Part shown: positions 88 through 63,041 of the stretch, in pieces
How positions within the stretch are numbered: the stretch's first letter is position 1
Layout: each line of letters begins with the position of its first letter
Assembly (NCBI RefSeq): GCF_018873765.1
Contig: NC_057925.1
Coordinates: forward strand, 12,287,568-12,351,567
Reading direction: 5' to 3'
DNA length: 64,000 bases
DNA from: Telopea speciosissima
Lineage: Eukaryota > Streptophyta > Magnoliopsida > Proteales > Proteaceae
Notes under the pieces: generated by a model
The model's database searches: none
The model's input: the letters and a program-made list of their open reading frames with translations, nothing else
Told to the model about the DNA's origin: nothing
Made by a program: the position numbers and the translations under genes

Positions 88-32836
<32,749 letters not shown>

Positions 32837-36245: not shown

Positions 36246-37639
36246 GAAAAAGAATTAGACAGAATATTGAATTAAAAAAATAATAATAGTAAGGGATTCT
36301 AGTGGAGAAATCAGCCTCATGAGATTCAAAATGGGAAAAAATATACTCCTCTCAAAGGTACTGCGTGACACATTTGATAGCTGTGTTTTTGCGCACCATG
36401 TTCGTGAGACCAACAGCTAACAGCTGCGCAGATTTGTTGGTTAGTTTTGTACACACCACACAGGATTAGGAGATATCTCTTTGTATTGACTCTTTTCCCA
36501 TGGCATTTTTTCTTCTATTGCATAATGATGCTAGGAAGAAAAAATATCTAATAATGTAATTCTTCACTAGTAATTTATAATATATATGTTCTTTTCTAAC
36601 CGAAAAAATAGGAAAAAATATACTCTTCTCAAAGGGATTTTTTTTCATAAATTTGGAAGATTTTTAGCTATAATTAAGACAGAGAAGAGTGAGAAAAGAG
36701 ATAAAGATTTGGGAAGAGAAGTGAGATGTCTAGGAGAGACGTGGAACGGGAGGAGCAAATCTAGAGTTTTCTAATATTAAATTATTAATATTAATATTAT
36801 AAATTTGAGGGTAAGGGAACCATTAATTTGTGAAAAATAAAAAATAAAAAACAGCAAGAAAAAGAGATAGAGAGAGAATAATATCTACCTTATTTAATTA
36901 AGGGTTTTTTTTTAATTGCATTAATTTTATGAGAGAGAATTGGAGAGATTTTCTCTCCATAATTGTTAACCGATCTATTTTTGTTAAATCTAATTTTGTG
37001 GAGAGATTTGCTTTAAATAATAATAAATATTATTAGGATTATTATTAGCGTAATAAGGGCCGGTTATTTTTTCAAATGTAACAAAAAGGTGAAAAGACTG
37101 GTAAGTGATAAAGAATAAAACATTTAAGTATCAATTAGATAGGACAATTTGGACATTTCATTTTCTTTATTAAAAGCTAATACTTATATTGTAAAATGAC
37201 ATATTAAATGGCATTTCTGTCATTTCATAACATACACTAGATGATTGACACGTGTCATACCTCCATCCAACGGTCATTTTTTAAGTGAAAAGTTTTTTCC
37301 CGCTCTCTCCCCTCTTTCCCGCACTTCTCTGTCTCTCTCTACTCCCACTCTCAATCTAAATCCGATTAAATATTCTCAATCTCAATCTCAATCTCGTGTC
37401 ATTCTTATCTCATATAAATTGAAGCCAAAGTGAGAAAAAAATCATGGTTCAAAGTACCGTATTGGTTTTGCACTTTGCTGATACAATATTCCGATATCGT
37501 ATTAGTGACACGGTATGGACATGAGGTAAATCTATCAAAAAATCTATTTTTAAAGGAAGATCAAGGGCAAATTTGTCCAATATGGCCGATCCTTGTACAT
37601 ACCGATCAAATACCATATTAGTTTCCAAGTTAACCAATA
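36246..37639. other. AT-rich intergenic region
   Basis: No gene recognised. From about 37,440 to 37,640 there are GATACGGTAT/CCGATAT-type repeat motifs like those near 33.2 kb. Confidence 0.5.
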
Positions 37640-38815
37640 CCGAACCGAATTGTTTGATAAATGAACCAGTTATGGTTTCAACATTGAGTCCGTTAATTAA
37701 ACGGTTTAAATCGAATCAGACCGCTTAACACTCTTGTACATATATAAATGTGCCAAAATCAAACGAAAACTGTTTAAACCGAAACCACGAAACTGTTTAA
37801 TAAATGGTTCTTTAATAAATGGTTCGATTATTGTTTCAACATTCAGATCGTTTAACTAAACAATTTAAATCGAACCAGACGACCGTTTAACACTCTTAGA
37901 TGTACTTAAATATGTCGAAATCAAACAAAAACCGTTAACTAAAACCAAACCGAACCATTAAAAATGAAACAGTGAAAACATTTAATAAACGGTTCGATTA
38001 TGATTTCAAAATTGAGACCATTTAATTAAACGATTTAAATCGAACCGGACCATTTAACACTCTTAGATGTACATAAATGTGTCGAAATCAACCAAAAACT
38101 GTTTACCGGAACCAAACCGAACCATTAAAAATGAAACAGTGAAAACATTTAATAAACTGTTCGATTATGATTTCAAAATTGAGACCATTTAATTAAACGA
38201 TTTAAATCGAACCGGACCATTTAACACTCTTAGATGTACATAATGTGTCGAAATCAAACAAAAACCGTTTACCGAAACCAAACCGAACCATTAAAATCAA
38301 AATGGTGAAAACATTTAATAAACGATTCGATTATGGTTTCAAAATTGAAACCATTTAATTAAACGATTTAAATCGAACCGGACCGTTTAACACTCTTAGA
38401 TGTACATAATGTGTCAAAATCAAACAAAAACCGTTTACTGAAACCAAATCGAACCATTAAAATCGAAACAGTGAAAACATTTAATAAATGGTTCGATTAT
38501 TGTTTCACCATTGAGACCATTTAATTAAATGGTTTAAACTGAACCGGACCGTTTAACACTCTTAGATGTACATAAATGTGTCGAAATCAAATAAAAACCG
38601 TTTACCGAAACCAAACCGAACCATTAAAATCGAAGCCGTGAAAATATTTAATAAATGGTTCAATTATGGGTTCAAAATTGAGACCGTTTAATTAAACGAT
38701 TTAAATCGAACCGAATTGTTTAACACTCTTAGATGTACATAAATGTGTCAAAATCAAACAAAAACCGTTTAACAAAACCAAATCGAACCATTAAAAATGA
38801 AACCGTGAAAACATA
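37640..38815. repeat. Seven-copy ~167-bp tandem array
   Basis: The marker CACTCTTAGATGTACATAA or a close variant occurs at 37729, 37891, 38058, 38225, 38391, 38557 and 38724, giving periods of 162, 167, 167, 166, 166 and 167 bp. Each unit also has AAACCGTTTACCGAAACC-like and AATTAAACGATTTAAATCG-like parts. Units differ by a few percent and small indels. Read on the minus strand, the unit carries TAAGAGTGTTAAACGGTCCG, resembling plant hAT-MITE ends, so the array may be an amplified MITE interior. Confidence 0.92.
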
Positions 38816-39291
38816 TATACATCATACCCAGGAATAGGGTTTACTTGAAAGAAAACACAGCTGAAAATCCTATAGACCTATACCCTATACCCTATACCCT
38901 TGTAACCCTAGAGTATAAGGGTTATCGATCTGAAAATTCGACCTTGATGGGTCCATTTGATTAGAGTGTAGGGTTTTACCACGTGCCATGGGCGTTGATG
39001 TGCCAACTAGGAGTTGGGGTAGCAGAAGGGTGGGTTGGGGTTATAGGGTAGGGTAGGGCAGGGTTGCAGGGGATGAGATGGTAGTGGTTCGGGTCAAGGT
39101 TGGCAGAAATGGAGGTGAAGGTGGGGTTACGGGTGGGAATGGGGTTGAGAGGGGCAAGCTTGAAAAATATATTTATTTTGGAGTATAACTAACCTACTAA
39201 GACACTCTAGGCATCACTTTTCAAACATGAGGTAACCAAAATGTCATTTTCTCAAACTTAAGGTATCTGAGGTGTAATTTAGAATTTTTAT

Positions 39292-45135: not shown

Positions 45136-45829
45136 TCAAAGGGCTCAAATCCTTCAGTTAAAATTCAGCCTCTAAGCCTATGTTTGGAAGCCAAGAATCG
45201 AAAAGAAAAGAAAAGAAAAATTAAAAAAAAAAACTGAATTTGAAGAGAGAGATAGACACATAATTCAATCATTAATGTGTCATCATAATTTGTCTTTTTA
45301 TGTTTTTTCTTTGGGAAATTTACACATACCACCCCTGAGGTTTGACGAAAGGATATTTTCACCCCCCAGTTTTGGAAAATTTTGTGTACCCCCTTCAGGT
45401 TTGCAAATGGTAACAAATAAGCCCATTCCGTCAGTTCATGACTAACACTGTTAAAAATTAGACTTGAACTGGTGGAATTACCCTTCTAAGAAGAACCCAA
45501 AAAAAAATAAGAGGTGAATGGACAAAATTACCCTTACAAAGGCAAAAAAAAAAAAAATCCAGGTTTCAAAACCATAAGGGTGTTGAAGCCCTGCCATGCT
45601 CCCAAATAGAAAATTAACTAAAAGAAGAAGAAGAACTACATTGAAGATGATAATAATGAAAAAGAAAAAAAATTAACATAAAAAAAGGGGAGGGGCGAAG
45701 AAGAAAGTAACAGAAGAGAGAGGGCAGGGGTACCTCCGTCTGCAATAATCCCAATCCCAATCCCAATCCCAATCCCCCTTTGAAACTTCAAGATTGGAAC
45801 TTGATTTCATAATCTAAGCAAACAAAACA

Positions 45830-46309
45830 CTACGAGGAGGAAGGTGAGGATTCCGGCTTCCTGCAGAGGATCATGTGCATCGGAGTGAAAATCCCAGTCT
45901 TCCCACCTCTGGCCAGGTAATCAGCGGTCACGAATAGCATCTCATGGACATCGACAACACCCATAGGTGCGATCCCAATCCAAGATAGCAGAATCACCAA
46001 GATATGGTTTCTCCAGTAAGCAATCCTTCCCATCTTCAACCTCTGCCACCATGGTTTTGAAGGGGGTTTCGCCAGATCCTTCTCCTTCACAACTTCGAAT
46101 CCAACCTTCCTCGCAGTGTCTGCAACCTCATCGTACCTCCTCAATCCAGGCAATGCATCACCTCTCTCAATCCCATGAATGATCTCCACCTGCTTCGGGT
46201 CCTCCGCACTGTACCTATCGGTCGTGACCCACTCGTAGGACACGTACATTGATCCAAGCTTCAACACCCTGTAGATCTCTGCGTAGACTTCCTCAAGCTT
46301 GGGAGCATG
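45830..46309 (-). pseudogene. SMT2: Captured SMT2 3' fragment (sterol C24-methyltransferase 2)
   Basis: SMT2 adds the second C24 methyl group in plant sterol synthesis. On the minus strand 160 codons including the stop match the C-terminal part of SMT2: HAPKLEEVYAEIYRVLK, GSMYVSYEWVTTDRYSAED, IIHGIERGDALPGLRRYDEV, EKDLAKPPSKPWWQRLKMGR, VDVHEMLFVTADYLARGGKT, GIFTPMHMILCRKPES and a natural stop. The frame is open throughout. The N-terminal part with the main S-adenosylmethionine-binding motifs is missing (the full protein is about 360 residues), so it should not be active. It ends abruptly at 46309, where other sequence begins. Confidence 0.93.
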
Positions 46310-46390
46310 GCAGGTAGTTTCTTGTCTTTCCCCTTCTTCCTGTTGCCAGTGAGATCAAGGGAACAATCGATGTCTTCGATGACTATGATG

Positions 46391-46648
46391 AATTTGTTTA
46401 GGAACAAGTTGCACGGCGCGATTCCAAATTTCATTGGTGATTTGCCTGAGTTAGAAGTGTTGCAGCTTTGGGAGAATAATTTTACTGGAAGTATTCCTCA
46501 GGGACTTGGAAGGAATGGCAAGCTTCAACTCCTCGATTTGTCGTCGAACAAGCTGACGGGGATTCTCCCTCCGGATCCCTGTTCTGGAAATCGGCTTGAG
46601 ACGCTGATCTTATTGGGGAACTTTCTGTTCGGTAACATTCCTGAATCG
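46391..46648 (+). pseudogene. Captured LRR segment of a BAM1-type receptor kinase
   Basis: An open frame at 46307-46741 contains about 86 codons nearly identical to the mid-ectodomain LRRs of BAM1-class CLAVATA-type receptor kinases: NLFRNKLHG-IP-FIGDLPEL, EVLQLWENNFTGSIPQ, LDLSSNKLTG, CSGNRLETLILLGNFLFG. That is roughly three and a half leucine-rich repeats. There is no signal peptide, transmembrane segment or kinase. The frame starts in unrelated sequence and ends in an acidic, Lys-rich tail (ESDGEDGDDSVQAKRLKKSD) from a third source. A chimeric open frame of 144 codons; whether it is expressed is unknown. Confidence 0.9.
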
Positions 46649-47306
46649 AGTTTAGGGTTAGGGTTTGAGGGTGGAGCAGAGAGTGATGGTGAAGATGGTG
46701 ATGATTCGGTTCAGGCAAAGAGGTTGAAGAAGAGTGATTGAGAGGCAAACATTTTAACAATCAATGGGGCGCTGGGATGGTTGCAACTCATCTTCCCCAA
46801 TTGCTCTTGGAGAAGATGAGTTGCAGGTTTTTTTTTTTTTTTTTTTTTTTTTGGGTTCTTCATAGAAGGTCAATTCTGTCAGTTCAAGCCTAATTTCTAA
46901 CAGTGTTAGTCAAGAACTGACAGAATGGGCTTATTTGTTATCATTGCCAACCTCAAGGGGATACGCAGAATTTTTTAAAACTGGGGGGGTGAAAATATCC
47001 TTTCGTCAAACCTCAGGGGTGATATGTGTAAATTTCCCTTTTTCTTTTCTTTTCTTTTCTTTCCTTTCCCCATATGTTTTTTTTTTTAACTACCTTTTCC
47101 CTCTCTATTGTAGCAACTAGGAATAAGAAACTACTAAAAAAGATGGACACAAGACATGATTATGGGATTAAGAATTCCAATCACACACAATTAGGAAACC
47201 AAACACAACAAAAGGCTGCAACATGATATTTAAGCCAAATGCTTTCCAATCACACTAATAGGGTAAACGAGTACACAAGTAAATATAGATTTATTAAGAG
47301 ATCACT

Positions 47307-47753
47307 TTAACCAGAGATTTCAATGGCCTTGACCTCTGGTTTCTTGACTTCTTCCTTGGGGATGGTGACAGTGAGAACTCCATTCTCCACGGAAGCCTTT
47401 ACTTGATCCATCTTGGCATTCTCAGGCAATCTGAACCGGCGAAGGAACTTGCCGCTGCTACGCTCAATGCGATGCCACTGATCATTCTTCTCTTCCTGTT
47501 CTTTGGTCCTTTCTCCACTGATCTGAAGGACTCTTCCTTCTTCAACCTCGACCTTCACTTCTTCTTTCTTCAGCCCAGGAAGGTCAGCTTTGAAGATGTG
47601 GGCTTCTGGGATCTCCTTCCAATCTACGCGGAAATTGGCAAACGCAGCAGTATCACTGGAGAACTGAGGGCGAGAGGTTGTGAGTGAAGAGGAGAATGGG
47701 AAGTCCTGGAATGGATCCCAAAAGCCACCAAGGAAACTGGGAATGATCGACAT
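47307..47753 (-). CDS. Class I small heat-shock protein (sHSP-A)
   Basis: Cytosolic class I sHSP, 148 residues, intronless. It is an ATP-independent holdase that keeps heat-denatured proteins soluble. The N-terminal arm [10 protein letters not shown]...WDPFQDFPF is followed by the alpha-crystallin domain (about 44-135: [32 protein letters not shown], the [17 protein letters not shown] block, [12 protein letters not shown]) and the C-terminal I-x-I motif in KAIEISG. I chose the ATG at 47753 rather than the upstream Met in the longer open frame because MSIIPSF is the family start and aligns with sHSP-D. A TATA box and an imperfect heat-shock element lie upstream. It differs from sHSP-D (58.3 kb) at only two residues (Leu8/Ile and Val/Met in the last third). 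Confidence 0.96.
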
Positions 47754-47888
47754 TGTTTGGAGTACTCTCCGATTACAGAGACAAATGCAGGTGAACTGAA
47801 AAGGGTAAGATTTAGATGACGAAGTTTTGCTTGGAAACCTAATTAGTTTCTCGATCGCTTCTATGAGAATTGAGAGGGAGGTGCTCCA

Positions 47889-47936
47889 CAATTTATAGTT
47901 GAGTTGTTGGGAGAAAGAGAATTCTAGCAATTTCTC
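47889..47936 (-). promoter_or_regulatory. sHSP-A TATA box and heat-shock element
   Basis: On the minus strand AACTATAAAT (47891-47899) is about 140 bp before the ATG. Just upstream, GAAATTGCTAGAATTCTC (47919-47936) reads as nGAAn/nTTCn modules with two imperfect units. The identical arrangement precedes sHSP-D. This predicts heat induction through HSF binding. Confidence 0.65.
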
Positions 47937-48024
47937 TGGTTTTTCAACTTTTGAGCTACCAGAGAGACAATGAAGCTTCCATCAAAGTAGAGACCAAAGA
48001 GAAGATGAACCGGCCCGGGGGCCC

Positions 48025-48250
48025 GGGGGGGGGGGGCATCCTTCAACAGACCCCATTCTGGAGTATTCGCTTGTAGGGTCACAATTTGGGATAATTCCTC
48101 CCCGGCCCATTTGCTCCAAATAGTGTTTCCATAGCCCATAGGGGGGGGGGGGGCATCCTTCGACAGACCATTCTGGAGTATTCGCTTGTAGGGTCATAAA
48201 TTTGGGATAATTCCTCCCCGGCCCCATTTGCTCCAAATAGTGTTGCCATG
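48025..48250. repeat. 117-bp tandem duplication upstream of sHSP-A
   Basis: A G-run, then CATCCTTCAACAGAC, ATTCTGGAGTATTCGCTTGT, GGGATAATTCCTCCCCGGCC and TTTGCTCCAAATAGTGTT occurs at about 48,037 and again at 48,154. The duplicate locus upstream of sHSP-D has one copy (about 58,985-59,090), so the doubling followed the segmental duplication or was lost there. Confidence 0.88.
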
Positions 48251-48556
48251 CATGGGCTATGTGTCAAAAATTCATTAGTCCAGTAGTTCATGGTAATTGA
48301 TAGGTGCTGGTAAGATGGATTTGACTTAGAACCGACCTACTCAATTGTTTATTGGTCCAGTTATAGATCTATCGATAAATTATTGGTCGGGTTCTAGATC
48401 TAACAATTAGGAATAGTTGGAACCGGTGAAATAGGAACAAATTCTTAAGACTCAAAGCCATGAGAGCTAAGGTCAAACCCTCTATTTTTTTAGTCTTTCA
48501 ATTTTAACTGGTACCACTTGTCTAATATGCTATTTTACCAAAGATTTGACTGTAAA

Positions 48557-49576
48557 TTTAATGGTCAATTTGAGAATTTTAACTTAGGAACATAACTTAA
48601 AATAATTCTATTTTATGAGGGTGGTGGTGTTCTTAATTACTTATTACTTAATACAAAACAAGAGGTAATATAGACTACTATTGTGATTTGAGAAAAAAAA
48701 AAAAAAAAAAAAAGGCATATCTCATGTGATTGAAATTAGAGTCTTGTTATAATATTATTAAATATATGTAGCATGTGTTAGGGGATTTTTTCTTTAAAAA
48801 AAATTTGGAGTTTCTTAAAATCTTTAATTTTAGGAACCGGAACTGGCCCACCCATTAGTTAATGGTCCTAGATCACAGGTTTGGAACCGATTAGCTTGGA
48901 CTGGTTCTGGTCCTGACCCCTTAAGATCGGAACCGTCAAGGAACTAGACCGATAGCCCAGAACCGGACCAATTGACACCCCTAGTACCCCTCCTTTACAT
49001 GCCGAGTATGAGTGTATTGTAGTCTACCTCATTTAAGGGTGATGTAATTTTGTGAAATAACAAGCTCTCCTCCCAAAGGAGCTTGGATAAGGTTCTTGTA
49101 CGAGATCCATTCTCGTACGTCAGATGCCACACAGATGGAATCCACTCACTCTCTTGAATTACAAATGTGTAGCATCTAGCGTACGAGAATGTTCAATGTA
49201 CGCCTGAACCATTATGCTCCCACAGGTTGAACATGTCCTTTACGGATCTGGTTCTCCACCAACTGTAGCGGGAGCAACGCTCGAAAACCACCCCAAAAAC
49301 AGGGGATTGGTCATTTCACAGGTGGGGCCTAGGTGGGTTGGATCCTCCAGTTCCCACCACGATTGGAAGAAATCCATTTTCGTCCTTTACGCACCTTTTT
49401 CTAAAACCCACCAAGCCAAAAATAATACTCGGAATCGACTTATCCATTATCTATCTTATAAATAGGGAGGTAAAACACAAGGTACCTTCCATTCAATCTC
49501 ACACTCATACTCCACCTCAAGTTATTGCTCTTTCAGCTGCCTTGCTGTTGATCTGAATTTTGAATTAAGCATTGGA
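48557..49576. other. Unit-1-specific intergenic sequence
   Basis: Left part of the 2,021-bp stretch missing from unit 2. It has an A-run (about 48,690-48,712), an AACCGG-rich stretch ending GACACCCCTAG near 48,985 (like a hAT-MITE end, but no partner or target duplication found) and an inverted CGTACGAGA/TCTCGTACG pair near 49,098 and 49,190. No gene. Confidence 0.6.
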
Positions 49577-49584
49577 GAGTCTTC

Positions 49585-50530
49585 TAGGGCTGCATGATAA
49601 CACTTCTATTTCTGGGTCATGTTTCTATTCCAGAAATGATTTTTTCTATTTCTATTACTGGGACAAATTTCTTGACAAAAAAAAAAAAAAAAAAAATAGA
49701 ATCGCGTTTGTTATGTTCAATCATTTCTGTTTCTAGAACTTCTATAAAATTTTAAAAATGCCTTTGAATTACCAAAAAGTTGGTGGATGTGGAGGTGGTG
49801 CCGGTGGCGAAGGTGAAGGTGGTGGTGACAGTGGCGATGGCGAAGATGGAGGTAGAGGTGGTGGCGGTGGTGGTGCTGGAGATGGTGGCAATGGAGGTGG
49901 CAGTAGTGGTGGCAGAGGTGGTGTCAGTGGAGGTGGTGGAGTTTGAGGTGCTGGTGGCAGTGGTCATGGTGGAGGTGGCGGTGGCGATGGCAATGGCGGA
50001 GGTGGAGGTGGAGGTGGTGGTGGTGGAGGTTGCAGTAGTGGTGGAGGAGGTGGTGCCGGTGGAGGTGGAGGTGGAGGTGGTGGCAATGACAATGGTAGAG
50101 GTGATGGCGGTGGTGGCGGTGGCGGCGGTGGCGGTGGTGGTTGCAGTAGTGACGGTGGAGTTGGAGGTGGAGGTGGTGGAGGTGGTGGCAATAGTAGTGG
50201 AGGTAGTGGCGGTGGCGGTGGTGGTTGAAGTTGCATTGGATGTGGTGTTTTATTTTGAACATAAAATTATTGTTTTTCCCATCAAATTAATTAACCATGT
50301 GCTCATTAAAGAATAACTCCACCCTTATTGTTTCCTTTTATTTTTGGGATAGAGAAGATTCAAATTGGAGTTTCTTTTTCTTATTTCTCGGCAAATTTTT
50401 TTGTCCTGGTTCATTCCCAATAACAAAAAAATAAACCGGTGTTGACAAACAGATTTCTCTTAATGTTTTGTTCCTAGGAATAAAAGAATAGAGAAATAGT
50501 GCAACAAAAGTGTTATCATGCAGGCCCCTA
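49585..50530. mobile_element. hAT-like element containing a GGT minisatellite
   Basis: 946 bp. The left end TAGGGCTGCATGATAACACT and right end GTGTTATCATGCAGGCCCCT are inverted repeats. The flanks GAGTCTTC (49577-49584) and GAGTCTAC (50531-50538) form an 8-bp target duplication with one mismatch. No transposase. Most of the interior is a GGT/GGC-rich minisatellite. Absent from unit 2. Confidence 0.75.
49780..50226. repeat. GGTGGN/GGCGGN minisatellite
   Basis: About 450 bp of imperfect triplet repeats (GGT, GGC, GGA, GTG). It produces open frames on both strands that are poly-Gly, poly-Val, poly-His or poly-Pro. These are a by-product of the repeat rather than genes. Confidence 0.93.
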
Positions 50531-50781
50531 GAGTCTACTCCGGCCTCTCTGTTTTTCATGTTTTGGTCAGCTATAGGGAATTTTTTTTCTACCTTCAAAA
50601 GAGGCTTATCTTGATGGGAGCCCTTTCTAAGTGTTGTTTACGGATGATTTTTAACAAACTGAATATCTTATATGGATTACTATGTGTCAAAGTTGGCATT
50701 CAATTTCAACCATATGGCTCAACATTTTTAAAGTTTAAAATATGCATTTTCAACTGTTGTTCAACATCAGCTAAAGTTGAG

Positions 50782-51437
50782 TGTCCGCTTGATAACCTTA
50801 CTGCTATTTCTGTGCTGAGAAACAGCAGAACAGTTTTTTTCGTTTCTGTGCTGAGAAACCGTTTTTGTCCCGCGAGAAATGGTGTCTTCTGTTCACAGGC
50901 AATTTAAGACTAAAACAGTGAGCAAGAAATCCCTAAAATTTTTGGGGATTCTTTGATTTGGAGCAGCCTGCGAATGGGTTTTGGTCACTCTTATGTTCAC
51001 AATGGTTGCATGGAGTTCTAAAATAGCAGAGAGAGAATCATGGAACGTACCTGTCAATGGAGGTAGCAGGTTTGAACCTGCGCGAAGAGGAGGTAGGAGC
51101 TTGGCGATGGAGGAGGTGAGTTCTCAAGCTTGCAGGTTGAAGGAGCGTTGCAGATCGAAGGACCGTTGCAGCTTCTCCCAAACCGTCAGGTAAGAGTTGA
51201 GAGGTGAGAGAGAGGTTAGAGGCGTGACATGTTTTTAGGAGCTTTTATCGAGCAAACTTTTGTAATTTTCAGCCTAGAATTGCCAAAAGTCTTCCATAGG
51301 ACATAAATTTTGATTTATCCTCCCAAGAACATGTTCTACAAAACACCGTTTACCAAGCGCTTTTTAGGATATTTTTCCGTTTCTCAGAACGGGAAAACTC
51401 CAGAAACCATTTCTCATAAGGTTATCAAACGGACTCT
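50782..51437. mobile_element. 656-bp inverted-repeat element with preserved empty site
   Basis: The left end TGTCCGCTTGATAACCTTA and right end TAAGGTTATCAAACGGACTCT are imperfect inverted repeats. It is flanked by GAG on both sides (50779-50781 and 51438-51440). The duplicate locus near 59,570-59,590 reads straight through as AAAGTTGAGTTTCTTAAC, the empty site with a single GAG. A 3-bp duplication fits PIF/Harbinger or CACTA types, but the termini do not clearly assign it. No transposase. Confidence 0.85.
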
Positions 51438-51798
51438 GAGTTTCTTAACAAGTTTTAAGATGAGCTGACCCAGTTAATTAAATGATGATGTCGACATCTT
51501 CATAAAATTTTAGCCGTCAATTAAGCTGCCACATAGTAGATGTCTGTGAGACGTACAGATGGAATCCACTCCCAAATGGGTCCCACATGAGGATTCCACC
51601 TGTGCGATTCACAGCCGTTCTCGATCCCAACTCGTAGATGTACGTCAGGACAAAGGAGGTAATGTAAATGACCAGAACCACAGGTGATCTATGTTTACTG
51701 GCCCGGTCAATGACAATAAGTATTTGGGTTCCTAAGCCAATGCCTAACCCACACCGAGCCCAGATTTCCGAAAGTTTCTAATGGTTGGGAAAGTGCTA

Positions 51799-51934
51799 GA
51801 ATGTTCATGAACATCCATAGGAAAACAAAAATCTAGGAAAGTACTAGAAATCCAGATTCTCGCGGAAACTTGAAAACAAAGGGAAGGAAAAGCCGGGAAA
51901 GTACTGGAATCCTCCCTCCCCTGTTCTATAAATG
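51799..51934 (+). promoter_or_regulatory. sHSP-B promoter: heat-shock element and TATA box
   Basis: GAATGTTCATGAA at 51799-51811 is a perfect GAA-nn-TTC-nn-GAA heat-shock element. More GAA/TTC units follow (near 51,857-51,871). A TATA box CTATAAATG is at 51926-51934, about 115 bp before the ATG. The same layout precedes sHSP-E and, inverted, sHSP-C. Confidence 0.8.
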
Positions 51935-52048
51935 CAAGAATATTGTGAAACTCCTCTGCAACGCTAAGACACAAACTAAGCATTGAGCTATTTGTGAAAA
52001 GTTTTCAGCAATTCGTTTCGATCCTAAGCAAAGCTTTAATCAGTAGAA

Positions 52049-52504
52049 ATGTCGCTAATTCCAAGCTTCTTTGGTGGCCAGCGAAACATCTTCGATCCAT
52101 TCAACGATTTCCCTTTCTCAACTTCTCTCTCTGTTCCGCGCCCCCAATTCTCCAATGAAACAGTTGCATTCGCTAATGCCCGAATTGATTGGAAGGAGAC
52201 CCCAGAAGCCCATATATTCAAAGCTGATCTTCCTGGACTCAAGAAAGAAGAAGTGAAGGTTGAAGTGGAAGAAGGCAGAGTCCTTCAGATCAGCGGAGAG
52301 AAGAGCAAAGAGCAAGAAGAGAAGGGTGAGCAGTGGCATCGTGTTGAGCGTAGCAGTGGTAAGTTCCTGCGCAGGTTCAGGTTGCCTGATACTGCCAAGG
52401 TGGAGCAGGTGAAGGCTGCCATAGAGAATGGAATACTCACAGTCACAGTGCCCAAGGAAGAATTCAAGAAACCAGAGGTCAAGGCCATTGAAATCTCTGG
52501 TTAG
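52049..52504 (+). CDS. Class I small heat-shock protein (sHSP-B)
   Basis: Cytosolic class I sHSP chaperone, 151 residues, intronless. N-terminal arm [10 protein letters not shown]...[10 protein letters not shown]. Alpha-crystallin domain about 46-138 ([58 protein letters not shown]). C-terminal KAIEISG with the I-x-I motif used in oligomer assembly. The ATG sits about 115 bp after a TATA box, as expected. It is the unit 1 partner of sHSP-E but differs from it at about 13 residues, far more than the A/D pair. Full length, no damage. Confidence 0.96.
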
Positions 52505-52722
52505 AAGTCTTAATTCTGTTAATGCCTTCTTATGGCTCTAATAATTTATATATGATGAGATATCTAATAATTAAAGGGCTTCTTGTTGTAACTTTGTGTA
52601 TTGTAAAAGTAAATAAATAAATAGGTTATATAATTTTTGTTTTATGATTTTTATCTTGTCCAGCATTTGATAAAATTTTTTATTATTCACCTTTTTTTTT
52701 TTTTTTTAATTATTATAAATTT

Positions 52723-52846
52723 GGGAGAATATTTTTTGTGTCGGGGGCATAGGTTGCGCCTAGACACATGGGGGTGAGTGAAATGATCACCTTGCCCCCT
52801 AGATGGCAAGCCTATGTGTCTGCTATGGTACAGAGAACATCAACCT
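52723..52846. mobile_element. Small MITE, family 2 copy 2
   Basis: About 124 bp, from GGGAGAATATTTTTTGTG to CAGAGAACATCAACC with the shared core GACACATGGGGGTG. It lies about 220 bp after the sHSP-B stop. The equivalent copy is at 60811-60934, so this insertion predates the segmental duplication. Confidence 0.7.
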
Positions 52847-54990
52847 AAAAAGACAAAATTTTCCTCCACCCATAAAGAACAGTTCACCCATCATCCTAGG
52901 GTTCACAAATCCTTTTTAAGGTTTTAGTATGTTTCGAAATACCCTCCCAATATCCACTCCCGCCTTCTCCTGCCCCTCGGTGACCGTGGGTGGAGAAAAA
53001 CTTGGCCCATTTTTTAAATTTTTGAATTTTTTTTGTTTTATTGCCACCTTTAGGTAGCGATATTTTAAATCGTGGATTCAATGTATATTTGTTGTTACAC
53101 CAAGAGGGCTCAACAATTATGATGTTATGCAAAGAGGGCTTAAAGCCTTAATCGATCGATTCATAAGCTGAAAAATCAAGAACTATTAAACAATATGGGT
53201 GTCAATTTGAAACGGAAACTGAAAATTGAAACCTAATCCCGTCATTTGAAATTGGACCGAATCAAACCAAAGAAATATTGGTTCAGTTTTGATTTTAAAA
53301 CAAGGAAAATCTTTTTCCGGTTCAGGTTTGGATTTGGTTTCAAGGGTGAAAATATTTGTTTAGAACCAAATCGAATTTCATAAAAATTATCAACACACTA
53401 TGTCGATTGACAAGTGGTGATTGGTGACATCCTAACACCTTTTTTCCCATCTAGGCCTAGAGAGTGGCCTAGAGAGTGGTGGTGTTGCATGTGACCTTGT
53501 AATTGCAATGCTGTCATAGTATGATAGAAGTAGGTGACGGTGCACCATGTTGTCATACGCAGTCAAACATACCACATGGTTAAAAAACAATGTTCAGAAA
53601 TGGGGATTTTTGCGTAAGAACAATGACATAAGACCCTCATGTAGGTAGGCTAGATCCACGATCAGTGATAGAATGATTTCACTATTTCTTTGAAGCAAAA
53701 ATTTCAGATCCCTAGATTTTTCTCATACCCTCACAAAGAAATAAGAACACTTTATAAATCCGAACCTAGAAAAGTACAGAAAATGCCCCTAGAAACCCAA
53801 GAGACCCAACCGATTTGGTTCAGACCTGAATCCAACATATGTCGATATACAAATCATTTCGAAGGTCTCGACGAGCTCTAAAGGGCTAGGCCTATGACAC
53901 TGATGTATGCACTTTTAGGCTATTCTGACGTGTTTTGAAGGCTAAACAACCAACCAAAGAATCGCCAGAACATTTTCTAGACTGAGATTAAGCTTCACCA
54001 CTACACCACATTGACAAACCTAAACTAACAAAAAAAACATTGACCCAAAAAAAAAAAAAAAACTAATAAAGAAAACATTCTTTTCTCACACTTTACTGTT
54101 CTTTTTCTCATACGCCTTTGTTACTTTCTCAGCCTCATCAAACATCTTTCTTCTTGTGATCTTACCCCAAGATCAAGATGGGTTCCTTGTTTTTCTTGGA
54201 AGAGCTTCCCTTATAATAATATCCTTCCTCTTGAAAGGATAAGTCCATTGTTGATGACTATCAAGACGCTAAAATCTCTAATCCATATCGGTACTAATTT
54301 TCTTACCAATAGTGGAATTAAGCTAAATTTAATCTCCTATATATTTAATTTTAGGAAGAAAGAGTGCTACATGATCGCATGGCTCTTGCAACTAGGCACA
54401 GATATGTGCAAAGGTACCGACTCCCCGCCCCCTCCCCATGAAATCAGAAATGGTAATTAAATATATTCATACCTCTATGTGCATTCTCATTAGCCCTGTG
54501 CTCATGCAGGCGCTATTCATCCATTTTACTGGGAACTAAAGAACGCTAACTGTCATGTAACCCCTGGTCTAGCAGTAGCCAATGATAGTGTGCATAGAGA
54601 CATTGGTTTACATGCAATTTCCATTTCACTAGGACTGAATGATCTTTACCAAAATAAGGGGAAGGGTCTGAATAATCTAGTTGCGCACAAAGACATTGAT
54701 TTGTGTCTAGTGCTGCAACCAGACTAATCAAGCAACTGGCTAACATTCTTTTTCCCAAAAACTAAATCTTTTCTTTTCTTTTCTCAACGAAAGATAACAT
54801 TTAAAAGACAATAGAAACTGGAATTTAAAATGATATCAAATTCAACAAAATTTCTGTATTTCTATATCAAACACTCTCGATAATGCACAAACTCAAAAGT
54901 TACAACACACAGCTCTCTAAACATCGTTAGGGAGACCCAAATCATTATTAGATATCTCTTCATATATCAGTTTTTAGATCCATTAAGTGA
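52847..54990. other. Duplicated intergenic block (unit 1 side)
   Basis: Matches about 60,935-63,041. It contains GAAACC/GGTTTC-rich sequence (about 53,190-53,400) resembling hAT-MITE interiors and an unrecognised conserved stretch (about 54,100-54,760) with short open frames. No gene named. Confidence 0.6.
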
Positions 54991-55021
54991 CATAGGGGTG
55001 TAACAGATCGAACGAGAACTT

Positions 55022-55501
55022 CTAGCCAGAGATTTCAATGGTTTTGACCTCTGCCTTCTTTACTTCTTCCTTGGGCACGGTGACAGTGAGCACTCCATTC
55101 TCCATTGCAGCCTTCACCTGATCGATCTTGGCATTCTCAGGCAACATGAACCTGCGCAGGAACTTGCCGCTGCTACGCTCAACCCGGTGCCAATGGTCAC
55201 TCTTCTCTTCCTGCTCTTGGCTCCTCTCTCCACTGATCTGGAGAACTCTGCCTTCTTCCACTTCAACCTTTACTTCTTCCTTCTTGATGCCAGGAAGATC
55301 AGCTTTGAAGATATGGGCTTCTGGGGTCTCCTTCCAATCGATTCGAGCATTGGCAAACGCAGCTGTTTCATTGGAGAATTGGGAGCGAGGAATAGATAGG
55401 GAAGTTGAGAAGGGAAAATTGTTGAATGGATCCCAAATATCCATTGAGAATGGATCGGAGATGGTTCGCCGGCCACCAAAGAAACTTGGGATGAGCGACA
55501 T
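55022..55501 (-). CDS. Class I small heat-shock protein (sHSP-C)
   Basis: Cytosolic class I sHSP chaperone, 159 residues, intronless. N-terminal arm [20 protein letters not shown] then [11 protein letters not shown], longer than in its neighbours and closer to the usual class I length. Alpha-crystallin domain about 54-146 ([70 protein letters not shown]). C-terminal KTIEISG. I chose the ATG at 55501. The frame extends two codons upstream, but only to GTG. A perfect heat-shock element and a TATA-like box lie upstream. It stands between the two duplicated units and has no partner in unit 2. Confidence 0.96.
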
Positions 55502-55616
55502 TGACACTGATTTAGGCTTTGTTTGTGGATTAACACGAATTGCAGAGAACTCTTCACAGATTTCTTGATGCTTGGTGTAAAACTTCCTGAATGTGGTTGG
55601 GAAAGGACATGAGTCC

Positions 55617-55751
55617 TGTATTTATTGAACAGGGGATGGAGGATTCCAGTACTTTCTCAGGTTTTCCTTCACCTGGCTATAAAATTTCCTTGAAATTATT
55701 GGAGAGAGAAGGCACGAATCTGATTCTTTCTTCGGATTTTCCTGAACATTC
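55617..55751 (-). promoter_or_regulatory. sHSP-C promoter: heat-shock element and TATA-like box
   Basis: On the minus strand GAATGTTCAGGAA (55739-55751) is a perfect GAA-nn-TTC-nn-GAA element. AATAAATA (55619-55626) is the likely TATA box, about 120 bp before the ATG. The sequence between resembles the sHSP-B promoter. Confidence 0.75.
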
Positions 55752-55943
55752 TAGCACTTTCTCAGCCAATTGAAACTTTTTATAATCTGACCCCAGATTG
55801 TGGACTGTTAATGCGTTGGGCACTAACCCATGCCACCCAAACTTTTCTGGTGCTTTTCTTCATTTTTCGGATTTCATGTCTAGCACTTTCTCAGCCATTT
55901 GAAACTTTTGGCGTTGTGGGTTGTAAATGCATTGGGTTAGGAA

Positions 55944-56485
55944 TAGGGTTGCAATAGGGTCGGGTTGGGTCGGGCTTTATAGGACCCCTACTCCAATCTT
56001 GAGTCCCCTTAGCTGGGCCCAAGTCTGACTCGATCCTGATTTAGGGCTTAAAAAATCTAACCCTGACCTGCCCTCAGGGTCGGGTCGGGCTGATCTTGAT
56101 TGGCCCTACTCGTGGGGAGGGAGAAGGAAATGTATGGTCAGGGAGAAAATTATCAATTTTACATAAAATAACACTATAATAACTGTATTATATCACTTAT
56201 TATCTTCATATATAATATATTATTTAACAAAATGTGGATGGCGTTTAAATTTTATAATATATATATATATATATATATCAATATATATTTTATTGTATAA
56301 CTTAAAACAGGGTTGGACCGGGTCGGACCAAGCTTTGCCTAAAGCCTCAACCCTGGCCCGACCTGACCCTAACTCATGGTCAGAAATTTGCAACCCTGAC
56401 CAGCCCTTAGGGCCAAATATCTCAACCCAGACCCTGTTCAGGCTTAGGGCGGGTTCAGGCTAACAGGGCCAAACTTGCACCCCTA
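55944..56485. mobile_element. hAT-type MITE, 542 bp
   Basis: Begins TAGGGTTGCAATAGGGTCGG and ends AACTTGCACCCCTA, an imperfect inverted repeat. It has a perfect 8-bp target duplication GTTAGGAA (55936-55943 and 56486-56493). The interior has repeated GGGTCGGG / CCCGACCT segments and a TA microsatellite. No transposase. Confidence 0.85.
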
Positions 56486-56493
56486 GTTAGGAA

Positions 56494-57403
56494 CCCTAAC
56501 CAGCCAAATTGTATAATATATTATGTCTAGTAATAACTAAATGATTCGGTTAACCTTTTGGGATTAGTGTGTGGTTTGTGTGATTACATTTTCATAAAAA
56601 AAACTAAATGATTATTGTTTATAGTCTATAACTTATTATCATAATTGATTATTTATAAGTAGGTCATAAATGTAAATATAAACTATGCCAATGAGATTAA
56701 TTGATAGCTAAAATTTTGTGGAGATTGTTCATAACACTATTTCACTATTTGGTCGACTCAATTTACAATTGGTTAAAATTTATTAACTAGAAAAAAAAAA
56801 CACATACTTAAACGTTAAGAATGATGGGATATATGGTTATGGAATGCCGAATTTGACATATCGCTCTTTCATGTGGTTTACAATTTATTGGATAATTAGT
56901 TTATTGAATGAGCTAGCTTGCACAAGGCTCCAACAAAAAGGTGTGTATTAGGTTTAAACAAGCCACCTTCGAAGGTAAGTAGAAATTCTTTCTAATGATA
57001 ATAACAATATTGTTCGATTGATGGCTTCCAAGTAGAGTGCATGCCAAAAAAAAAAAAAACCAAAAAAATGTAGAGTGCATGCCCCCAGAAAGTCAAGGGA
57101 TCGATCTACTCTCCTGGTTTACATTTATGTTATAACTTAAGGGCATTCCAACATATTATTCCTCTCAACATTGGAAATTTGTTTTTCTCAGAAAATATTT
57201 AAAACTTTTAGAAAAGAGATTTTCTTATTGACACCCCTCAAGTGTCAAATAATTTGAAAAACTTTACCTTTTTGATCTTTTAGTATTTCATACAATTTTT
57301 TCCAACAAGGGTAAATATTTTCATTTTACATAGCTACTCAAAATATATGCATGAGAATGATACTATTTGATTTTTTTTAAGGTAAATGAATGACACATTT
57401 TGA
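56494..57403. other. AT-rich spacer between the duplicated units
   Basis: No gene, and no transposon identified. A short A-run lies near 57,044. Confidence 0.6.
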
Positions 57404-57990
57404 TAATGAGAACCCAATTTTAATAAACAGAGACTCCAAGTGAGTTCAGACGGTGCATCTGCAATTGCTTTGTTCTTGGACTTGGTTGACAAACAAACCA
57501 CAGTTTTCTATTTGTGAATCCGCCAGTAAACGTACAATCATCAATAGAACCGTCCCAATGAAGGCCTATAAATGTCTGCAATTGTAAGGAAGATGACCGC
57601 TCAATGATAAGACCATAATCTGATATGTGTTTTAAATAGCGTAAAATAAGCTTGATTAGAGTCCAATGATCCTCAGTGGGAGCATATATAAACTGATATG
57701 TATGGTTGACATCAAATGCAACATCCGGTCTAGTGAGTATAATATACTAAAGAACGACAACCACTGACCGATATTTTATAAGATTAGAGAACAAGACACC
57801 ACCTATTTCAAATGACTTTATAGTAGTTGCAATTGGAGCATTGACAATTTTACAGTTTGCCATGCTTGAATTTTGCAGAAGGTCAATGATATAGCATTGC
57901 TAAGAGAGAACAAAGCCATTTGATGGAGAACATCCGCAATGCCCAAAAATGAACTCAGAAGGCCCAAAAATTCAGCCTCTAATTGCTTGA
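57404..57990 (-). mobile_element. Copia-3 pol relic, unit 2 copy
   Basis: Fossil. Duplicate of the Copia-3 relic at 44.54-45.13 kb, with the same RT-RNase H part. Many breaks, no LTR. By eye it has diverged more from its partner than the adjacent sHSP coding sequences have. Confidence 0.8.
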
Positions 57991-58271
57991 GAAGGATGGC
58001 TAGGAAAATTGCTGGTAAATATCATCCATATTTTTTATTCTACCTCTTCCCTCTCTATTGTAACAAACTAGGAATAGAAAAGTACTAAAACAGATGGACA
58101 CAAGACATGATGGGATTAAGAATTCCAATCACACACAATTAGGAAACCAAACACAACAAAGGCTACAACATGATATTTAAGACAAAAGCTTCCATACAAT
58201 ACAAAACTTTCCAATCACACTCATAGGGTAACCTATTACACAAGTAAATATAGATTTATTAAGAGATCACT

Positions 58272-58718
58272 TTAACCAGAGATTTCAATGGCCTTGACCT
58301 CTGGTTTCTTGACTTCTTCCTTGGGGATGGTGACAGTGAGAACTCCATTCTCCATGGAAGCCTTCACTTGATCCATTTTGGCATTCTCAGGCAATCTGAA
58401 CCGGCGAAGGAATTTGCCGCTGCTACGCTCAATGCGATGCCACTGATCATTCTTCTCTTCCTGTTCTTTGGTCCTCTCTCCACTGATCTGAAGGACTCTT
58501 CCTTCTTCAACCTCGACCTTCACTTCTTCTTTCTTCAACCCAGGAAGGTCAGCTTTGAAGATGTGGGCTTCTGGGATCTCCTTCCAATCTACGCGGAAAT
58601 TGGCAAACGCAGCAGTATCGCTGGAGAACTGAGGGCGAGAGGTTGTAAGTGAAGAGGAAAATGGGAAATCCTGGAATGGATCCCAAAAGCCCCCAATGAA
58701 GCTGGGAATGATCGACAT
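58272..58718 (-). CDS. Class I small heat-shock protein (sHSP-D)
   Basis: Cytosolic class I sHSP chaperone, 148 residues, intronless, starting [18 protein letters not shown]. The alpha-crystallin domain and C-terminal KAIEISG are as in sHSP-A, from which it differs at two residues (Ile8 for Leu and Met for Val in ENGVLTV's preceding position). TATA box and imperfect heat-shock element lie upstream in the same places. Unit 2 partner of sHSP-A. Full length and probably functional. Confidence 0.96.
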
Positions 58719-58860
58719 TGTTTGGAGTACTCTTTGATTACAGAGACAAATGCAGGTGAACTGAAAAGGGTAAGATTTGGATCACGAAGTTTTGCTTGGA
58801 AAACCTAATTAGTTTCTCGATCACTTCTATGAGAATTGAGAGGGATCGAGGTGTTCCAAC

Positions 58861-58906
58861 ATTTATAGTTGAGTTGTTGGGAGGAAGAGAATTCTAGCAA
58901 TTTCTC
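58861..58906 (-). promoter_or_regulatory. sHSP-D TATA box and heat-shock element
   Basis: On the minus strand AACTATAAAT (58861-58869) is about 145 bp before the ATG, and GAAATTGCTAGAATTCTC (58889-58906) lies just upstream. Same as sHSP-A. Confidence 0.65.
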
Positions 58907-59944
58907 TGGTTTTTCTTCTACTGAACTACCAGAGAGACCATGAAGCTTCCAGCAAAGTAGTGACTAAAGAGAAGATGAACGGGGGGCCCATCCATCAACA
59001 GATCCACCCCATTCTGGAGTATTCGCTTGTAGGGTCACAATTTGGGATAATTCCTCCCCGGCCCCATTTTCTCCAAATAGTGTTTCCTTGCATGGGCTAT
59101 GTGTCAAAAAGTCATTAGTCCAGTAGTTCATGGTATTGATAGGTGAAAGTAAGATGGATTTGAATCGGAACCGACTTACTCAATTGTTTAGTGGTTCGGT
59201 TCTAGATCTGTCGATAAGTTATTGATTCGATTCTGGATCTAACAATTGGGAACAGTTGGACGGGTGAAATCGAAACAAATTCTTCAGACTCAAAACCATG
59301 AGAGCTAAGGTCAAACTTTTTATTTTTTTTAATCTTTCAATTGTGGTTGGTACCACTTGTCTAATATGTTATTTTACCAAAGATTTGACTGTAAAGAATA
59401 TTTTTTCTACCTTCAAAAGAGTTTTATCTTGATGGGAACCCTTTCTAAGCGTTGTTTAGGGATGATTTTTAACAAACTGAATATCTGATATGGACTACTA
59501 TATGTCAAAGTTGGCATCCAGCATTTTTAAAGTTTAAAATATGCATTTTCAACTGTTGTTCAACATCAGCTAAAGTTGAGTTTCTTAACAACTTTTATGA
59601 TGAGCTGATCCAGTTAGTTAATTGATGATGTCGACATCTTCATGAAATTTTAGCTATCAATTAAGGTGTCACATAGTAGATGTCTGTGAGACGCACGGAT
59701 GGAATCCACTCCCAAATGGGTCCCACATGAGAATTCCATCTGTGCAGTTCACAGCCGTTCTCGATCCCAACTCGTAGATGTACGTCAGGCAAAGGAGGTA
59801 TGCAAAGGACCAGAACCACACGTGATCTATGTTTACTGGCCCGGTTCAATGACAATAAGTATTTGGCTGGCAAGGGTTCCTAACCCGATGCTTAACCACA
59901 CCGAACCCAGATTCTGAAGGTTTCTAATGGTTGGGAAAGTGCTA

Positions 59945-60079
59945 GAATGTTCATGAAAATCCATAGGAAAACAAAAATCTAGAAAAGTACTAGAAATCCA
60001 GATTCTCGCGGAAACTTGAAAACAAAGGGAAGGAAAAGCCGGGAAAGTACTGGAATTCTCCATCCCCTGTTCTATAAAT
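59945..60079 (+). promoter_or_regulatory. sHSP-E promoter: heat-shock element and TATA box
   Basis: GAATGTTCATGAA (59945-59957) is a perfect heat-shock element. TCTATAAATG (60071-60080) is the TATA box, about 116 bp before the ATG. Nearly the same as the sHSP-B promoter. Confidence 0.8.
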
Positions 60080-60195
60080 GCAGGAAAATAATGTTCCTCC
60101 TCTGCAACGTTAAGACACAAACTAAGCATTGAGCTATTTGTGAAAAGTTCTCAGCAATTCGTTTCGGTCCTAAGCAAAGCTATTAATCAATAGAA

Positions 60196-60651
60196 ATGTC
60201 GCTCATTCCAAGCTTCTTTGGTGGCCAGCGAAACATCTTCGATCCATTCAACGATATCCCTTTCTCAACTTCTCTCTCTCTTCCTTCCTCCCAATTCTCC
60301 AATGAAACAGTTGCATTCGCTAATGCCCGAATAGATTGGAAGGAGACCCCAGAAGCCCATATATTCGAAGCTGATCTTCCTGGACTCAAGAAAGAAGAAG
60401 TGAAGGTTGAAGTGGCAGATGGCAGAGTCCTTCAGATCAGCGGAGAGAGGAGCAAAGAGCAGGAAGAGAAGAGTGAGCAGTGGCACCGTGTTGAGCGTAG
60501 CAGTGGCAAGTTCCTGCGCAGGTTCAGGTTGCCTGATAATGCCAAGGTGGAGCAGGTGAAGGCAACCATGGAGAATGGAGTGCTCACTGTAACAGTACCC
60601 AAGGAAGAATTCAAGAAACCAGAGGTCAAGGCCATTGAAATCTCTGGCTAG
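60196..60651 (+). CDS. Class I small heat-shock protein (sHSP-E)
   Basis: Cytosolic class I sHSP chaperone, 151 residues, intronless. Arm [10 protein letters not shown]...[10 protein letters not shown], alpha-crystallin domain about 46-138, C-terminal KAIEISG. Unit 2 partner of sHSP-B. Two of its differences fall in otherwise invariant parts of this family as seen here: HIFEADLPG where the four other copies have HIFKADLPG, and EVADGRV where they have EVEEGRV. Heat-shock element and TATA box are intact. The open frame is complete, so it is probably functional, perhaps with altered dimer or client contacts. Confidence 0.96.
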
Positions 60652-60810
60652 AAGTCCTAGTTCTGTTAATGCCTTCTTATAGCTCTACTAATTGATATAT
60701 GATGAGAAAAAATATAATTTTTGTTTTATGATTTTCATCTTGTCCAACATTTGATAAAAATTTTAATTATTAACCTTTTTTTTTTCTCTTGTTTTTATTA
60801 TTACAATTTT

Positions 60811-60934
60811 GGGAGAATGTTTTATGTGTCGGGGGCGCAGGTTGCGCCCAGACACATGGGGGTGGGCGAAATGACCACCCTGCCCCCTGAATGGCAGGTC
60901 CATGTGTATGTTGTAGCACAGAGAACATCCGCCC
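60811..60934. mobile_element. Small MITE, family 2 copy 3
   Basis: About 124 bp, from GGGAGAATGTTTTATGTG to CACAGAGAACATCCGCCC with core GACACATGGGGGTGGG. Duplicate of the copy at 52723-52846, and better preserved at its ends. Confidence 0.72.
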
Positions 60935-63041
60935 AAAAAGACAAAGGTTTCTTCCACCTATAGAGGACAATTCACCCATCATCATAGGGTTAACAAATCC
61001 CTTTTAGGGTTTTAGTATGTTCCAAAATACCCTCTCGATATCCATTCCCGCCTTCTCCCGCCCCTCAGTGAATGGAATCCCATTCATTCACTATGGGTGG
61101 AGGGAAACTTGCTCTATTTTTAAATTTTTTGAAATTTTTTTGTTTTATTTCCATCTTCAAGTACCGATATTTTAAACCATGGGTTCAATCTAGATTTGTT
61201 GTTATACCAAGAGGGCTCAACAATTATAATGTTATGTCAAGAGGGCTTAAAGTCTTAAATGATCAATTCAGAAGCTGAAAAATCAAGAACTACTAAACAA
61301 TAAGGGTGTCAATTTGAAATGAAACTGAAAATCGAAACCTAAACCCGCCGTTTGGAATTAGACCGAATCAAACCGAAGAAATATTGGTTCAGTTTTGGTT
61401 TTAAAACAAGGAAAATCTTTTTCCGGTTCAGGTTTGGATTTGGTTTCAAGGGTGAAAATATTTGTTTAGAACCAAACCGAATTTCATAAAAATGATCAAC
61501 ACACTATGTCGATTGACAAGTGGTGATTGGTGACAACCAACACCTTTTTCCCCATCTAAGCCTAGAGAGTGGCCTAGAGAGTGGTGGTGTTGCATGTTAC
61601 CTTGTGATTGCAATGGTGCCATAGTATGATAGAAGTAGGTGACGGTGCACCATGTTTTCATACGCGGTCATACGTACCACATGTTTAAAAAACAATGTCC
61701 AGAAATGGGGATTTTTGCAGAAGGAAACGACGATAAAGAGAAGAACAATGACACAAGACCAGGTTTTACATGGTTCAACCTCATGTAGGTAGGCTACATC
61801 CACGGCCAATGATAGAATGATTTCACTATGAAACAAAAATTACAGACCCTTAGATCTTTCTCACACCCTCACAAAGAGATAAGAACACTTTATAAGGAAA
61901 CCCGAATCTAGAAAAGTACAAAAAATGCCCTTAGAAACCCAAGAGATCCACCCGATTTGGTTCAGACCTGAACCCAACATATGTCGATATATAAATCATT
62001 TCGAAGGTCTCGACGAGCTCTCAAGGGCTAGGCCTATGACATTGGTGTATGGACTTTTAGGCTATTCTGGCGTGTTTTGAAGGCAAAACAACCAACCAAA
62101 GAATCGCCACAACACTTTCTGAACTAAGATCAGGCTTCACCAATAACACCACATTGACAAACCTAAACTAATAAAAAAACATCGACAAAAGAAAAAAAAA
62201 AAAAAAAAAAAACTAATAAAGAAAACATTCTTTTCTCATGCTTTCCTGTTCTTTTTCTCATATGCCTTTGTTACTTTCTCAGCCTCATCAAACATCTTTC
62301 TTCTCGTGATCTTACCCCAAGATCAAGATGGGTTCCTTGTCTTTCTTGGAAGAGCTTCCCTTGTAATAGTATCCTTCCTCTTGAAGGGATAAGTCTATTG
62401 TTGATGACTATCAAGACGCTAAAATCTCTAATCCATATCGGTACTAATTTTCTTACCAATAGTGGAATTAAGTTAAATTTTATCTTCTATATATTTAATT
62501 TTAGGAAGAAAGAGTGCTACATGATCGCATGGCTCTTGCGCCTAGGCACAGATATGTGCAAAGGTACCGCACTCCCCCCCCCCCCCCCCAATGAAATCAG
62601 AAATGGTAATTAAATATATTCATACCTCTGTGTGCGTTCTCATTGGCCCTGTGCTCATGTAGGCGCTATTCATCCATTTTACTGGGAACTAAAGAACGCT
62701 AACTGTTCTACCAAAAAAAAAAAAAAAACGAACGCTAACTGTCATGTAACCCCTACTCCAGCAGTAGCCAATGAAAGTGTGTATAGAGACATTGGTTTAG
62801 ATGCAATTTCCATTTCACTAGGACTGAATGATCTTTACCAAAATAAGGGGAAGGGTCTGAATAATCTTGTTGCGCACATAGACAAAATTTCTGTATTCTA
62901 TATCAAACACTCTCTATAATGCACAAACTCAAAAGTTACAACACGTAGCTCTCTAAAAATCATTAGGGAGACCCAAATCATTATTAGATATCTCTTCATA
63001 TATCAGTTTTTAGATCCATTAAGTGACATAGGGGTGTAACA
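60935..63041. other. Duplicated intergenic block (unit 2 side)
   Basis: Matches 52,847-55,005. It has A-runs near 62,190 and 62,715 and a C-run near 62,575. No gene recognised. Confidence 0.6.

Follow-up and report, generated by a model that had tools for sequence, protein, structure and literature searches.

Introduction

Pack-MULEs of plants were reportedly treated by Jiang and co-workers in 2004, and interrupted gap repair of maize MuDR is said to have been proposed by Hsia and Schnable in 1996 for internal deletions. In plants, Pack-MULEs are bordered by target-site duplications (TSDs) of 9-11 bp and carry terminal inverted repeats (TIRs) of typically 100-500 bp, and TIRs at least 80% alike were the library criterion for such elements (Ferguson and Jiang, 2012; PMC3310237). 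In 2021, the way in which they acquire genes was still described as "perplexing" (PMC8277862). In the same paper, gap filling together with template switching was put forward as a model of cargo acquisition by TIR transposons of animals, and the authors considered the relevance of gap-filling/FoSTeST models to plant Pack-MULEs worth exploring (PMC8277862). Fillers are also known from other junctions. For example, those at Arabidopsis junctions have been called a hallmark of end joining by polymerase theta, with other donor molecules often being their source (PMC10923293). In the maize p2/p1 gene, a 50-bp filler was derived from two sites and was attributed to non-homologous end joining (PMC2686159).

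Here we describe an element in a 64,000-nucleotide stretch of DNA (the window), which has a GC content of 0.40 and was judged to be plant nuclear DNA from its gene content. We consider it, with a probability of roughly 0.8, to be a Pack-MULE whose cargo came from at least two and very probably three donors, was assembled by break repair and was mobilised by a transposase acting in trans.

Structure and class of the element

The element spans positions 45313-47038 (1,726 bp), and its 198-bp TIRs enclose 1,330 bp. The features of the locus were as follows (strand in brackets):

45304..45312 (no strand): left TSD, TTTTTCTTT, from flank comparison
45313..45510 (+): left TIR, first bases GGGAAATTTACACATA, from the TIR alignment
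45511..45564 (+): left subterminal stretch, A-rich, not part of the aligned inverted repeat
45565..45605 (-): templated filler, inverted exact matches to the SMT2 piece
45565-45575, within the filler: 11-bp scrap, reverse complement of 46051-46061
45576, within the filler: single base without a match to the SMT2 piece
45577-45589, within the filler: 13-bp scrap, reverse complement of 46258-46270
45590-45605, within the filler: 16-bp scrap, reverse complement of 46299-46314
45606..45829 (-): stretch beyond the SMT2 stop on the 3' side, perhaps a donor 3' untranslated region judging by its position
45830..46317 (-): captured 3' part and stop codon of a sterol C24-methyltransferase (SMT2-type) coding sequence, right edge approximate
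46307..46741 (+): chimeric open frame of 144 codons, with a leader antisense to SMT2/AAA, the LRR and an acidic tail
46318..46389 (-): probable Walker-B segment of a BCS1/ASD-like AAA-ATPase, IIVIEDIDCSLDLTGNRKK, from comparison with a presumed AAA-ATPase sequence, edges approximate
46390..46648 (+): LRR segment captured from a BAM-type receptor kinase, from Pfam, PDB and comparison with a presumed BAM1 sequence
46649..46781 (+): stretch with a coding-like acidic tail, until the TGA at 46739-46741, from frame reading
46782..46825 (no strand): 19-bp foldback, 18/19 paired, 6-nt loop, adjoining the right poly-T and TIR
46841..47038 (-): right TIR, from the TIR alignment
47039..47047 (no strand): right TSD, TTTTTCTTT, from flank comparison
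47307-47981 (-): open frame of a presumed small heat-shock gene, from the ORF list

The two TIR arms (45313-45510 and 46841-47038) were identical in 177 of the 199 aligned columns, with 20 mismatches and 2 gap columns, so that the inverted repeats of about 185 bp reported in the initial annotation are present and slightly longer. The exact 9-bp duplication that it had noted was also found: it borders both TIRs and could not be extended on either side. At a fixed boundary, a 9-bp TSD was expected by chance at 6.5e-5 (first-order Markov draws, flank model), and random 9-mer pairs from the window were identical at 3.1e-5. When the actual 100-bp flanks were compared, 3 of 8,372 9-mer pairs matched, the TSD itself being one of them; the flanks are T-rich, which raises a chance match above the usual level, yet it stays small. 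Since the TIRs end precisely at the repeat, a chance origin of the TSD is not credible. As the source of the whole structure, inverted repeats arising by chance and a faulty assembly join can practically be dismissed as well: the TSD is indeed T-rich and of low complexity, but inverted repeats with 89% identity over 199 columns (E 1.7e-67) end exactly at it. Besides the two TIRs, matches to them elsewhere in the window reached at most 23 bp, no other long copy being present, and a search of viral contigs with the TIR end gave no match. The window-wide TSD scan dropped two-letter words, and the element is consequently absent from the list of that scan.

The element is a Pack-MULE, a well-known kind of non-autonomous Mutator-like element. 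It has a 9-bp TSD, 198-bp TIRs and fragments of ordinary genes (Sterol_MT_C, LRR), and its 16 internal stop-to-stop frames of at least 50 aa gave no Pfam match to a transposase. Matches of single internal frames to zf-RING_Vps41 (13 bits) and Pcc1 (12.5 bits) lay below the Pfam cut-off and were treated as chance. Pack-CACTA elements have CACTA termini and a 3-bp TSD, and this class was ruled out by the termini GGGAAATTT and the 9-bp TSD. The reading first proposed, in which a Pack-MULE carries pieces of two or more unrelated genes, is supported, with a third donor being likely.

Other elements were observed in the window. The MULE-like element at 29590-31475 has the 9-bp TSD TAATTCTTT (scan of 25 bp either side), and its TIRs are identical in 65 of 68 columns, counted from the sixth base inward. 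It contains inner inverted pieces (30010-30060 and 31016-31066, 98%) as well as short direct duplications that are exact, for example of 28 bp at 29692-29719/29762-29789, all of which may be further repair scars. A second MULE-like element, at 14212-18806, has the 9-bp TSD TAGACTTAA (same scan) and TIRs with 143 of 177 columns identical; it contains a gag-like frame (16863-17588) that scored 22.6 bits with Pfam Retrotrans_gag, below the cut-off of 24.1. In addition, there are an LTR retrotransposon at 19971-25547, judged Copia-like by inspection, whose minus strand has long open frames and whose direct repeats are 97.6% identical, and a tandem array at 37650-38817 with a unit of about 160-170 bp.

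Captured gene pieces

On the minus strand a frame is open from 46354 to a stop at 45830 and holds the last ~160 codons of a sterol methyltransferase gene (Pfam Sterol_MT_C, 80.3 bits; cut-off 21.7), in agreement with the uninterrupted tail of 160 codons annotated before. When compared with a presumed Arabidopsis SMT2 sequence, 163 residues (46321-45833) were 76.7% identical; the label SMT2, as opposed to the family alone, rests on this comparison. The frame gave no match in the PDB sequence search and nothing in NCBIfam, and no relatives of it were found in the viral contigs searched. In the frames scanned from 45606..45829, downstream of the stop, no Pfam match exceeded the cut-off.

The LRR piece lies on the plus strand and comprises about 86 codons, as had been claimed. 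Pfam LRR_1, LRR_4 and LRR_8 were above cut-off, and 180 PDB sequences matched the frame at E <=0.01, with plant LRR receptor kinases leading the best 60 of the 180. NCBIfam yielded nothing but LRR look-alikes well under its cut-off (<=24.4 bits). BAM1 is presumably the nearest type, going by comparison with a presumed BAM1 sequence.

The two pieces had been said to meet within about 80 bp. This spacing was confirmed, but the gap is probably not empty: the ~72 bp that separate the SMT2 and LRR pieces probably come from a third donor, a BCS1/ASD-like AAA-ATPase. IIVIEDIDCSLDLTGNRKK resembles what we take to be the Walker-B region of plant BCS1/ASD-like AAA-ATPases, and a presumed AAA-ATPase sequence matched the window with 80% identity over 25 residues (E 1.5e-8, 46395-46321). 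The comparison sequence was chosen after the frame had been read, so this identity may be biased. The piece is on the same strand as the SMT2 piece and in a different frame. The stretch gave no match in Pfam or PDB and nothing in NCBIfam, and no mention of the motif letters was found in the papers searched. To the right of the LRR piece, the stretch with the coding-like acidic tail (46649..46781) had no Pfam match and is possibly a piece of a fourth donor.

The 144-codon chimeric LRR frame reported at first does exist, and counts exactly 144 codons from the ATG at 46307. Its start is hydrophobic (mean hydropathy 2.07 in an 11-residue window from residue 5), which we regard as a curiosity and no evidence for a product. 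It is very improbable that the frame is a young gene, in which the LRR fragment behind a hydrophobic leader would act as a secreted decoy of BAM-type peptide receptors. Such a reading would fit the open frame with its ATG, the hydrophobic start and the LRR stretch free of stops. However, the leader derives from DNA antisense to other genes, the LRR lacks end caps, and at low divergence an open frame is expected by chance. Considering substitutions only and no selection, the probability that no stop-making substitution occurred was 0.88, 0.53 and 0.28 for this frame at 1, 5 and 10% divergence, and 0.84, 0.41 and 0.17 for the SMT2 frame. Unbroken frames, which had been taken as a sign of recent capture, are therefore a weak one, as stop-free frames are often expected without selection, and they say little on age or function. 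Most likely the cargo is without protein function.

Filler at the left seam

Self-comparison of the element and an exact-match scan revealed a filler at 45565..45605, in which 40 of 41 bases are accounted for by three exact, inverted and reordered scraps of 11, 13 and 16 bp from the SMT2 piece. The 13-bp and 16-bp scraps abut and form a compound run of 29 bp. None of 3,000 dinucleotide shuffles of 45511-45829 produced a compound run longer than 15 bp. This segment shares ten 11-mers and one 16-mer with the SMT2 piece, which was reached in none of the 3,000 shuffles; the same was true for the counts of shared 12-, 14- and 15-mers, and the 13-mer count was reached in one.

As a control with real DNA, the window was divided into 1,580 overlapping segments, and each was compared with its neighbour under a low-complexity filter. 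Compound runs of at least 20 bp were present in 29 segments and those of at least 25 bp in 20, of which 19 start at 37,441-38,321 (the tandem array) and one is the filler locus. A single exact match of at least 16 bp occurred in 64 of the 1,580 segments (tandem array included) and is thus not rare alone; the strength of the filler evidence hence lies in the compound run. By both the shuffles and the window segments, the match of the filler to nearby sequence exceeds chance. The scraps cannot be the remains of one longer inverted copy, because their order is reversed relative to SMT2. No microhomology between the 16- and 13-bp scraps was obvious by eye. Matches of 12 and 13 bp at 46719-46732 were treated as chance.

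The filler is likely the footprint expected of template-switching break repair. Template switching acted on the element once, with the SMT2 piece already present or arriving, and this does not show that the gene pieces came in by the same event. A further possible scar, of the snap-back kind, is the foldback at 46782-46825. It exceeded all of 100 Markov sequences (their best 13 versus 16) and folds well (z -5.28), but was barely above the best of other stretches in the window (15, 15 and 15 among 48 tiles). We place little weight on it, since those stretches fold back nearly as well.

We consider it most likely that a break arose within a MULE and that the cargo was put together during its repair. 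Repair synthesis would have jumped to ectopic templates, namely SMT2, AAA-ATPase and BAM genes, and the left seam would have been closed with short inverted scraps re-copied from the SMT2 sequence by end joining with template switching, of the kind carried out by polymerase theta. Insertion of the element, with the 9-bp duplication as its trace, would be due to a MULE transposase supplied in trans. The order of these events, the enzyme and the mobilisation in trans are what we infer, and the donor identities at gene level and the donor boundaries are provisional, any junction microhomology being hypothetical. A more specific version, that one theta-like repair episode both joined the three genes and sealed the seam, and that Pack-MULE formation in plants is a by-product of theta-mediated end joining and not of transposase action, is tentative and less likely than not.

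A review describes a tandem-insertion model for Pack-type TIR elements (PMC13317346). Applied to this locus, capture would have occurred by aberrant excision and recombination of neighbouring elements, as in Pack-CACTA, and the filler would be a later, unrelated scar. The two further MULE-like elements in the window indicate that elements can be close together, and nothing ties the filler to the captures in time. However, with several unrelated donors in mixed orientation, several such events would be needed, and the outermost scrap ends at 46314, within about 3 bp of the probable SMT2/AAA seam, which fits a shared event. We therefore regard this origin as unlikely and keep assembly by break repair as the preferred one.

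Genomic setting and age

The distance from the stop of the gene at 47307-47981 to the end of the element, which lies downstream of it, is 268 bp (259 bp to the TSD). This gene reads towards the element and presumably encodes a class I small heat-shock protein. Five frames of at least 150 residues that presumably resemble such proteins lie at 47307-60651 in a duplicated region, where 51437-54695 and 59577-62884 are 86.5% identical. The flanks of the element have a paralogous segment: on the right side 47082-48130 matches 58031-59087 at 90.6%, and on the left side 44693-45149 matches 57513-57968 at 82.6%. In the paralogue (about 57984-58030) the element is missing together with its ~160-bp CT/A-rich surroundings, and about 45 other bases are found instead. 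This suggests that the element inserted after the segment duplication; as a precise empty site, the paralogue was rejected for the additional ~160 bp missing there. The CT/A-rich stretch itself (45178-45312 and 47048-47075), which the element interrupts, has no second copy in the window and is possibly a small older insertion that served as the landing site.

Mismatches between the TIR arms were found at 1 of 58 compared positions in the outer part versus 19 of 139 in the inner part (Fisher p 0.009, with the cut chosen post hoc). As they are mostly in the inner part, the difference between the arms is probably for the most part older than the last insertion, and TIR divergence was rejected as a clock for the same concentration. 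The last insertion may be young, and the scarcity of mismatches in the outer TIR part is a better hint of this than the open frames.

If the element is transcribed, RNA of the plus strand would have antisense orientation towards the SMT2 and AAA donors, and RNA of the minus strand towards the BAM donor. Transcripts running on from the heat-shock gene would be in sense orientation for SMT2/AAA and in antisense orientation for BAM. It could be asked whether the locus is a source of small RNAs that silence the parent genes. Whichever strand is read, the RNA would be antisense to one donor or more, a hairpin could arise from the 198-bp TIRs, and the heat-shock gene 268 bp away would supply BAM-antisense RNA by read-through. 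Against this, the foldback at 46782-46825 gave no match in Rfam and contains no recognised donor sequence. We hold such a role to be rather improbable.

Discussion

Compound templated fillers at cargo seams provide a concrete and searchable signature by which the template-switching model can be tested directly: inverted, reordered scraps of 10-20 bp of an element's own cargo could be sought across the Pack-MULEs of a genome. Furthermore, with a heat-shock gene reading into the element, it could be tested in a simple way whether antisense RNA is made from such cargo.

With the interrupted gap repair reportedly proposed for maize MuDR, the element shares break repair within a Mutator element; there the outcome was internal deletions, whereas here foreign gene pieces are present. 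It resembles the Pack-MULEs of plants in TSD size, TIR length, internal gene fragments and its non-autonomous nature, and at 1.7 kb it is larger than the size peak of tomato Pack-MULEs (1,000-1,200 bp; PMC3310237). What sets it apart from them is a short compound filler copied from the cargo of the element itself, of which no report in a Pack-MULE was found in a non-exhaustive search of partial texts. The fillers of theta-mediated end joining in Arabidopsis are similar in that inserts are templated nearby or from another molecule (PMC10923293), and the maize p2/p1 filler in that it is compound and from two sites (PMC2686159). Unlike the present one, neither is described at a cargo seam within a transposon in the portions of the two papers used here. 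Animal Pack-TIRs are likewise TIR elements that acquired cargo via template switching (PMC8277862); the element reported here differs from them in being a plant MULE, in having several donors and in carrying a fragmented inverted filler instead of simple microhomology.
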